This document shows, in pieces, positions 8,455-17,450 of a stretch of DNA of 38,896 nucleotides. The stretch lies in the IMG/VR virus record IMGVR_UViG_3300037480_000054, positions 1 through 38,896 of that record; one strand, written 5' to 3'. Within the stretch, counting starts at the first letter, position 1. Each line of letters starts with the position of its first letter. Under the pieces are notes generated by a model. It saw only the letters and a list, made by a program, of their open reading frames with translations, ran no database searches and was not told the origin of the DNA. Origin of the DNA: a virus. The position numbers were made by a program, and so were the translations under genes.

Positions 8455-8483
8455 ATTATATATATTTATTCGACACTTGTCAA
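8455..8483 (-). promoter_or_regulatory. Consensus sigma70 promoter with palindrome
   Basis: On the minus strand TTGACA (8478-8483), a 17-base spacer and TATAAT (8455-8460) form a perfect consensus promoter. The palindrome TTTGAC-AAGT-GTCGAA overlaps the -35 and spacer, so a repressor could act here. The predicted start near 8447 would transcribe the fragment, the resolvase, the coiled-coil gene and the second sigma gene. It is a sequence relative of the box at 8917-8945. Confidence 0.85.
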
Positions 8484-8498
8484 ATAAAACCTTTGTTA

Positions 8499-8729
8499 TT
8501 ATTTATTTTCTTTCTCGATTTCTTTTATTTTTAAGTCCCAATCCTCTCTTGACCACATATTCTCCAATCTCCACAAATAAAACTCTGCCGAACTGCACTT
8601 ATAACACATCGGTAAGTCTTTATCATTATATATTACATATTTAGTTTCTGGGGTAGTCTCTTCCCCACATTCACCACATGTATATATCTCGTCTTTCTTA
8701 AGTATTTTTCTGCAATCTCCTAAACTCAT
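8499..8729 (-). CDS. Zinc-ribbon protein (76 aa)
   Basis: The protein has 76 residues with AAGGAG before the ATG. YTCGECGEETTPETKYVIYNDKDLPMCYKCSS contains CxxC at 18/21 and CxxC at 42/45, a classic four-cysteine zinc ribbon, followed by EFYLWRLENMWSREDWDLK. It may bind nucleic acid or a protein partner. It follows the tRNA-like RNA in the same probable transcript. Confidence 0.72.
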   Translation of the reverse strand: MSLGDCRKILKKDEIYTCGECGEETTPETKYVIYNDKDLPMCYKCSSAEFYLWRLENMWSREDWDLKIKEIEKENK

Positions 8730-8759
8730 TTTATATCTCCTTAATTAATTATTATTAAA

Positions 8760-8886
8760 ATGATAGGGAGGATTCGAACCTTCCAAGGTTATCAATATAG
8801 TCATATGCCTAATATCTCAATTACCTACAGTTCCACCGATATAAATATCCAGAACCGCTTAACGTGTACCTGTCACGTACTATCAT
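8760..8886 (-). ncRNA. tRNA-like RNA with D and T arms but abnormal middle
   Basis: Reading the minus strand from 8886, the RNA shows a seven-pair acceptor (ATGATAG with CTATCAT), TA, a perfect D arm (CGTG-ACAGGTA-CACG with the GG pair) and, at the 3' end, a T arm with loop TTCGAAT and stem GGAAGG/CCTCC (one bulged A). About 80 nt lie between the D and T arms, instead of the normal 25-45. They can form CGGTTC...GAACTG, enclosing GATA-TTTA-TATC, and then a 14-position stem AGGTAATTGAGATA/TATATTGATAACCT with two mismatches and a 13-base loop. No regular seven-base anticodon loop on a five-pair stem is found. No CCA is encoded. It starts about 23 nt after a promoter. It could be a decoy, an intron-bearing tRNA or a degenerate tRNA. 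Confidence 0.7.
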
Positions 8887-8916
8887 TACTTCTTTTATTC
8901 TTATTCCTTATCTATC

Positions 8917-8945
8917 GTTATACATACTATTCGACAACTTCCGAA
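8917..8945 (-). promoter_or_regulatory. Promoter before the tRNA-like RNA
   Basis: On the minus strand TTCGGA (8940-8945), a 17-base spacer and TATAAC (8917-8922) place a start near 8909, just upstream of the tRNA-like RNA. The spacer contains GTCGAATA, shared with the 8455-8483 promoter, and the flanks 8928-8976 repeat 8467-8516. It is a weaker -35 than its relative. Confidence 0.6.
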
Positions 8946-8964
8946 TAAAAACCTTTGTTATTAT

Positions 8965-9353: not shown

Positions 9354-9384
9354 CCGATACCTTTATTTTTTCGCGGAAATAATA

Positions 9385-17377: not shown

Positions 17378-17450
17378 GCGAATGTAACTCAACTAGTAGA
17401 GTATCAGTTTTCCAAACTGAAGGTTGCGTGGGCAGGACGCGTCATTCGCA
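17378..17450 (+). tRNA. tRNA-Gly(TCC)-like gene with abnormal elbow
   Basis: A cloverleaf folds with acceptor GCGAATG/CATTCGC (7 pairs), D stem ACTC/GAGT, anticodon stem TCAGT/ACTGA with loop TTTCCAA (anticodon TCC, glycine GGA), variable GGTT and T stem GCGTG/CGCGT (5 pairs, two G-T). The layout and length match bacterial tRNA-Gly. The D loop AACTAGTA lacks the GG pair and the T loop is GGCAGGA in place of TTCRANY; only the G19-C56 contact seems kept. No CCA is encoded. GGA is common in the late genes, so decoding support is possible, but the elbow argues for a specialised or decaying tRNA. Confidence 0.72.

Follow-up and report, generated by a model that had tools for sequence, protein, structure and literature searches.

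Bacteriophage T4 encodes two small stable RNAs. T4 rnaC (species 1 RNA) is 139 nt long (AF158101, positions 70908-71046; locus L087:909-1047). Its T arm, CCGGG-TTCGAAT-CCCGG, adjoins the acceptor strand CGTTTCG, and two long hairpins replace the anticodon arm. Comparison of seven T-even phages revealed at least one compensatory change at 21 of the 47 predicted pairs, and rnaC is present in 710 phage records. In all seven phages (L087, L168-L173), the loops of hairpins 1 and 2 carry complementary sequences, UUGACG and CGUCAA, respectively, with one compensatory change in Yersinia phage fHe-Yen9-01. It is possible that the two loops form a kissing interaction. rnaC is a late RNA that was checked by northern blot, and its function is unknown (PMC9697503). 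Although detected in infected cells and conserved, it has been left without a function.

Several other phage or bacterial elements invite comparison. The Bacillus cereus pseudo-tRNA tRNA-Other was suggested to have a non-translational role as part of a larger RNA (PMC3399842). Phage tRNAs that evade tRNA-cutting defences are real tRNAs, and a change of the anticodon abolished rescue (PMC11555353). Finally, Lak megaphages are reported to have intron-containing tRNAs (PMC6784885).

A tRNA frame in the leader of an early phage gene

The phage analyzed here is a 38.9-kb IMG/VR virus (IMGVR_UViG_3300037480_000054; its whole stretch of 38,896 nt is referred to as the window) with portal, coat, and terminase genes of podovirus-like families. 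Since it encodes σ70-like factors, its host is bacterial. Close relatives are absent from viral, phage, and genome collections; the terminases found there are 25-34% identical at best and thus too distant for covariation. The features discussed below are as follows.

8760-8886, minus strand: whole tRNA-like RNA, 127 nt, 5' end at 8886, 3' end at 8760 (sequence, chance tests, own covariance model)
8880-8886, minus strand: acceptor 5' strand ATGATAG, 7 of 7 pairs with 8766-8760
8863-8877, minus strand: D arm CGTG-ACAGGTA-CACG, loop with GG (sequence, folding)
8827-8858, minus strand: hairpin H1, GCGGTTCT...GGAACTGT (z -2.9; 1.4% of shuffles equally stable)
8786-8826, minus strand: hairpin H2, AGGT...ACCT, weak, at the place of the variable arm (18% of shuffles equally stable, hence unsupported)
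8767-8784, minus strand: T arm GGA(A)GG-TTCGAAT-CCTCC, stem with a bulged A (sequence, folding)
8760-8766, minus strand: acceptor 3' strand CTATCAT, followed by T; CCA not encoded
8917-8947, minus strand: putative promoter P1, with the dyad TATTCGGAAGTTGTCGAATA at 8947-8928, a -35-like TTCGGA at 8945-8940, and the -10 element TATAAC at 8922-8917
8455-8486, minus strand: putative promoter P2, TTGACA-17-TATAAT, 81% identity over 78 nt to P1 and its leader
8499-8729, minus strand: 76-aa CxxC...CxxC (zinc-ribbon-like) gene, Pfam zinc-ribbon matches only below the cut-off

From 5' to 3', the RNA consists of ATGATAG, T8 and A9, the D arm, 78 nt, the T arm, and CTATCAT. All seven acceptor pairs are Watson-Crick, with one further A-T pair possible. 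The D stem is complete (4 of 4), and G18G19, U8, and A14 are all there; the GG of the D loop and the consensus T loop would allow the elbow contacts G18-55 and G19-56. The T stem is irregular, with either a bulged A or alternatively an A.C mismatch. The acceptor stem, D arm, and consensus-loop T arm that mark members of the tRNA family (RF00005) are thus present. When the 127 nt are folded, pairs of the acceptor, D arm, and T arm mostly have probabilities of 0.8-1.0, and in a transcript ending at 8745, before the ribosome site, the mean probability of the three arms is 0.91-0.98. The stability of the whole RNA is not above that of shuffled sequences (z -0.66). Its G+C content is 39%, versus 26% in the upstream and 10% in the downstream flank. 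The preliminary description had placed the element at the same coordinates, which proved correct, and had named no strand, which is minus. Of the arms described there as well formed, the seven-pair acceptor and the D arm hold, while the T arm falls slightly short.

The predicted start of P1 lies near 8910, and the RNA begins about 24 nt further on. The -35 element is weak, and on its sequence P1 is a plausible promoter of the RNA, in agreement with the promoter just upstream that had been proposed before. The dyad TATTCG..CGAATA of P1 is imperfect in neighboring P2, and P0, near 9350-9320, has a GTCGAATA/TATAAT core in common with the P1 promoter set. The zinc-ribbon-like gene is preceded by the ribosome site AAGGAG (8742-8737), and the RNA occupies the leader of this gene, 30 nt before the start codon. 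The three related promoters belong to a duplicated cassette (9360-8316, minus strand), in which the last 70 nt of a 111-aa gene (9043-8974) are recopied at 8404-8335 with 98.6% identity as a truncated remnant. Judging from the duplicated promoters and gene end, this early cassette has been rearranged, and the RNA lies in one copy's leader.

Two further observations concern the same genome. The motif TTTTTCGCGGAA (minus strand TTCCGCGAAAAA) repeats at 9363, 10500, 11753, and 12617, upstream of early genes, and is possibly an operator or activator site. A second tRNA-like gene (17378-17450, plus strand) lies just before a gene; it scores 49.8 bits with the Rfam tRNA model and has the anticodon UCC (Gly). 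Its T loop is GGCAGGA instead of TTCRANY, its D loop lacks GG, and ARAGORN misses it in bacterial mode. We take it to be reminiscent of the non-translational glycine tRNAs of staphylococcal cell-wall synthesis.

Comparison with tRNA models and with chance

In default mode, with or without introns, ARAGORN called no gene at 8760-8886, and RF00005 (tRNA) gave no match to the RNA up to E 10, nor did any other Rfam family. A strict frame criterion (Watson-Crick acceptor, GG D arm, G53-C61 T arm), chosen after the element had been seen, was matched in the window by 8760-8886 only and in none of 1,500 Markov-simulated windows of the same size. A looser scan, which allowed G-U pairs and a loose T arm, gave 11 frames per 150 simulated windows. 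With the T arm fixed and the upstream DNA shuffled, the frame was regained in 0 of 50 trials.

Searched against 672 kb of tRNA-bearing viral contigs, a covariance model built from the window RNA alone gave 61 matches (best E about 4e-4); in 677 kb of other phage DNA it gave none. Its best matches are ordinary tRNAs, aligned via the acceptor, D, and T arms with the middle unaligned. This retrieval of tRNAs is the strongest evidence and is independent of the scan criteria. The earlier view of a tRNA-like RNA with true D and T arms and no anticodon arm is borne out.

Homologues of the RNA were found neither by exact T arm plus acceptor nor by D loop plus T arm. Likewise, blastn against phages returned only short chance-like pieces, and the covariance model detected no homologue. 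Several other identities were considered and rejected. The tmRNA model RF00023 gave just an 11-nt T-loop match (5.8 bits), with no match to a tag reading frame or pseudoknot, and no small ribozyme of Rfam matched at the RNA. The plus-strand reading of 8760-8886 merely gives the tRNA frame reverse-complemented, and its 62-aa ORF opposes the gene block. A 21-codon minus-strand ORF from 8886 is attributed to chance, as a ribosome site is missing at normal spacing. As an antisense RNA to the phage genome, the RNA has a longest complement of 11 nt, equal to that of shuffled sequences.

Long tRNA frames in other phages

We scanned IMG/VR for the D-loop sequence AGGTA and the T arm GGTTCGAATCC 72-100 nt apart, followed by an acceptor and D-stem filter. 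This yielded 17 long frames (103-212 nt) outside ARAGORN genes and with the anticodon arm absent from its normal place; with the upstream DNA shuffled, 0.67 such frames are expected. At least one of the 17 (L259) resembles a chance hit. The first 80 loci of the scan contributed 13 frames plus that of the window, versus 0.18 expected. Overall, we collected more than 100 long phage tRNA frames besides the window RNA, most of them without a canonical anticodon arm. Anticodon-less tRNA-like genes are thus common in phages, where most of them lack an annotation. The set is mixed, and several members are tRNAs with an insert plus a real anticodon arm. The loci of three recurrent kinds are as follows.

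Insert module: L194, L224, L282, L296, L302, L303, L304 (APT65), L305 (BUCT-ZZ01), L306 (S13)
Leu-like frame: L204, L250, L315, L316, L319, L322, L339, L345-L461
TGCAAAT-loop RNAs: L462, L463, L464, L466

The first kind carries a 40-54 nt insert with a hairpin, NNNNCT-GNNA-AGNNNN, followed by the motif [AG]TTC[AT]GCA. The hairpin covaries (8 double-change cells, matched by 0 of 500 shuffles). The module was found in Cronobacter phage S13, where the tRNA is annotated as tRNA-OTHER, in Aeromonas phage APT65, in Synechococcus phage BUCT-ZZ01, and in several IMG/VR contigs. Several different phage tRNAs carry it, either immediately upstream of the anticodon arm or at its beginning. At least three members have a near-canonical anticodon arm after the insert, so we regard this family as tRNAs with an insert, comparable to the intron-bearing tRNAs of Lak megaphages (PMC6784885).

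The second kind, AGTCAGG-TGGCGGAATTGGTAGACGC ... ACAGGTTCGAATCCTGT-CCTGACT, comprises 101 distinct copies, 95 of which lack a canonical anticodon arm. Its 3' half is strongly conserved, though exact selection covered the 5' half only. The ends are nearly constant and the middles hypervariable (85 clusters, 23-196 nt). Half of 60 examined loci have no ordinary tRNA in the DNA examined, and some contigs carry two copies. The third kind consists of solitary unannotated frames that combine the D arm TGGCGGAATAGGTA with a TGCAAAT T loop. They occur in cultured phages of Weissella (WC29P3), Leuconostoc (Ln-9 and phiLM33_01), and Bacillus (KLEB27-1), and these RNAs have no Rfam match. In phiLM33_01, a TTGACA/TATAAT-like promoter is located directly upstream. 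We found no description of the Leu-like and TGCAAAT-loop frames in the open-access literature. Separately, locus L191:5995-6146 is a long tRNA frame whose anticodon stem encloses a shortened tRNA-like piece, comparable to the tRNA-in-intron arrangement of Lak phages.

The region between the D and T arms

An anticodon arm is absent from the 78 nt that separate the D and T arms of the window RNA. The best candidate in this middle region for a 5-pair arm with a 7-nt loop and U33 has 4 of 5 pairs, two of them Watson-Crick, and is matched by 93% of shuffled sequences. The preliminary description had assigned two hairpins to this region. H1 is indeed more stable than expected by chance, and H2 is not.

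A functional tRNA gene interrupted within or close to the anticodon arm by an insert of ∼35-55 nt, whose removal would yield a normal tRNA, is a rather unlikely reading, though phages offer precedents for it in the introns of Lak megaphages (PMC6784885) and in the 40-54 nt inserts with a conserved hairpin module of S13, APT65, BUCT-ZZ01, and IMG/VR contigs. With lowered thresholds, ARAGORN does report a tRNA-Asn(att) with a 41-nt intron and a score of 99.5 on the window RNA. When all internal excisions were tried, many spliced products were called tRNA by ARAGORN, but the best spliced score was equalled or beaten by 70-84% of shuffled middles (two scans) in a test of low power, on which real insert-bearing phage tRNAs reach just 0.02-0.37. 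Wholly shuffled RNAs were called tRNA after excision in 0 of 100 cases. Since shuffled middles do as well and whole shuffles never do, the frame alone yields the tRNA score and no splice is privileged. In addition, the insert motif [AG]TTC[AT]GCA is missing from 8760-8886, and the middle has no 5-7-5 arm. The previously suggested unrecognized intron found no support in this comparison, weak as the test is on true insert tRNAs. An archaeal-type bulge-helix-bulge intron was set aside because the host is bacterial, as indicated by the σ70-like factors.

Possible nature of the RNA

Our tentative preference, held just short of even confidence, is that the window RNA is a tRNA-derived, non-decoding phage RNA that is freed from the P1 transcript by tRNA-processing enzymes and persists. 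This reading starts from what is observed, namely a tRNA frame without an anticodon arm, its position behind a promoter-like site, and the many structural analogues in phages. Transcription, processing, stability, and function, which we infer, would proceed as follows. From the early promoter P1, the RNA would be transcribed as the leader of the zinc-ribbon gene. Through its acceptor, D arm, T arm, and elbow nucleotides, it would resemble a tRNA to enzymes that read these arms; candidates are RNase P, RNase Z or 3' exonucleases, the CCA-adding enzyme, and T-loop modifying enzymes. Because it would look like a tRNA to processing enzymes, its excision as a stable RNA of about 127 nt is most likely, and the mRNA left behind would have a short leader. 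With no anticodon arm, the RNA is unable to decode; it would instead engage tRNA-binding factors as a decoy or regulator, and T4 rnaC and the other anticodon-less phage RNAs may do likewise. The decoy role proposed in the preliminary description is thus possible. Against the non-decoding reading stand the failure to find homologues and hence covariation, a fold not above shuffles, the T-stem bulge, the competing folds that appear once the start of the downstream gene is included (no more than with that sequence shuffled), and the mixed nature of the analogues. That the window RNA belongs to a widespread, largely unrecognized phage class, in which a tRNA frame has its anticodon domain swapped for free sequence, is possible, if somewhat doubtful. 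If true, such phage RNAs would serve as natural tRNA scaffolds, either displaying other RNA or occupying host and defence proteins that bind tRNA.

A decaying tRNA pseudogene, with an overwritten middle and no function, has in its favor the T-stem bulge, the non-significant overall fold, the lack of relatives, and the rearrangement of the region by duplication. We nevertheless consider it unlikely. Outer arms that are nearly intact (acceptor 7 of 7, D stem 4 of 4, elbow preserved), with the anticodon arm wholly gone, are a non-random pattern that argues against plain decay, and the element sits directly behind a promoter in a compact genome.

Very unlikely, in our estimate, is an action in cis only, in which the tRNA shape would be a switch within the zinc-ribbon gene leader or a signal for its processing. 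The start codon is near, the T-stem strand CCTCC could pair with the ribosome site, and the predicted access to this site is 0.89 in the tRNA fold versus 0.60 (transcript ending at 8730). However, when the start of the downstream gene is included in folding, alternative folds compete by a small margin (0.5-3.6 kcal/mol), one that does not exceed the effect of shuffled downstream sequences, 27% of which compete as strongly. A leader switch was rejected on the same grounds. A chance arrangement of short stems, for which one could cite the post hoc criterion and the loose G-U-containing frames of simulated windows, is extremely improbable given the empty strict scan of simulated DNA and a model that retrieves real tRNAs.

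Relation to known systems

The phage tRNAs that evade tRNA-cutting defences are tRNA-shaped like the window RNA and lie under a strong promoter (PMC11555353), as the window RNA lies behind a putative one, but those tRNAs depend on their anticodon. The Bacillus cereus tRNA-Other is similarly a tRNA-like element suggested to act outside translation; unlike the window RNA, it has a Trp anticodon and sits on a bacterial genomic island. With the insert- or intron-bearing phage tRNAs (Lak, module family) the window RNA shares a long tRNA frame with 40-50 extra nt between the D and T arms. Where these can be read, however, they have a recognizable anticodon arm beside or around the insert, whereas the window RNA has none above chance and lacks the conserved insert module of the module family. 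The Leu-like and TGCAAAT-loop frames resemble it in their intact acceptor, D, and T arms, in the lack of a canonical anticodon arm, and in being often solitary and unannotated, but their frame sequence differs and no middle is held in common. The 101 Leu-like copies, 95 without a canonical anticodon arm, have about 85 unrelated middles and point to a large hidden class that is missed by tRNA finders. Provided that these RNAs are stable, they may act as decoys against the growing number of tRNA-attacking defences (such as PrrC, RloC, retron-Eco7/Septu, PARIS, and Cas12a3) or as scaffolds of small regulatory RNAs, or they may be tRNAs whose introns are of a new type. Among such defences, Cas12a3 has a preference for a CCA tail, and the window RNA would need to acquire one by addition.

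The closest likeness is to T4 rnaC. Both RNAs combine an acceptor stem and a T arm with the loop TTCGAAT around hairpins that stand in place of the anticodon arm, but rnaC lacks a canonical D arm, is late, and lies in or near a tRNA cluster. A model of the seven rnaC RNAs gave no match in the window up to E 10, so the likeness is one of plan and not of family membership. The window RNA comes from a small phage unrelated to T4, keeps its D arm intact, and has a promoter of its own, which suggests that tRNA-like RNAs without an anticodon are not peculiar to T4.
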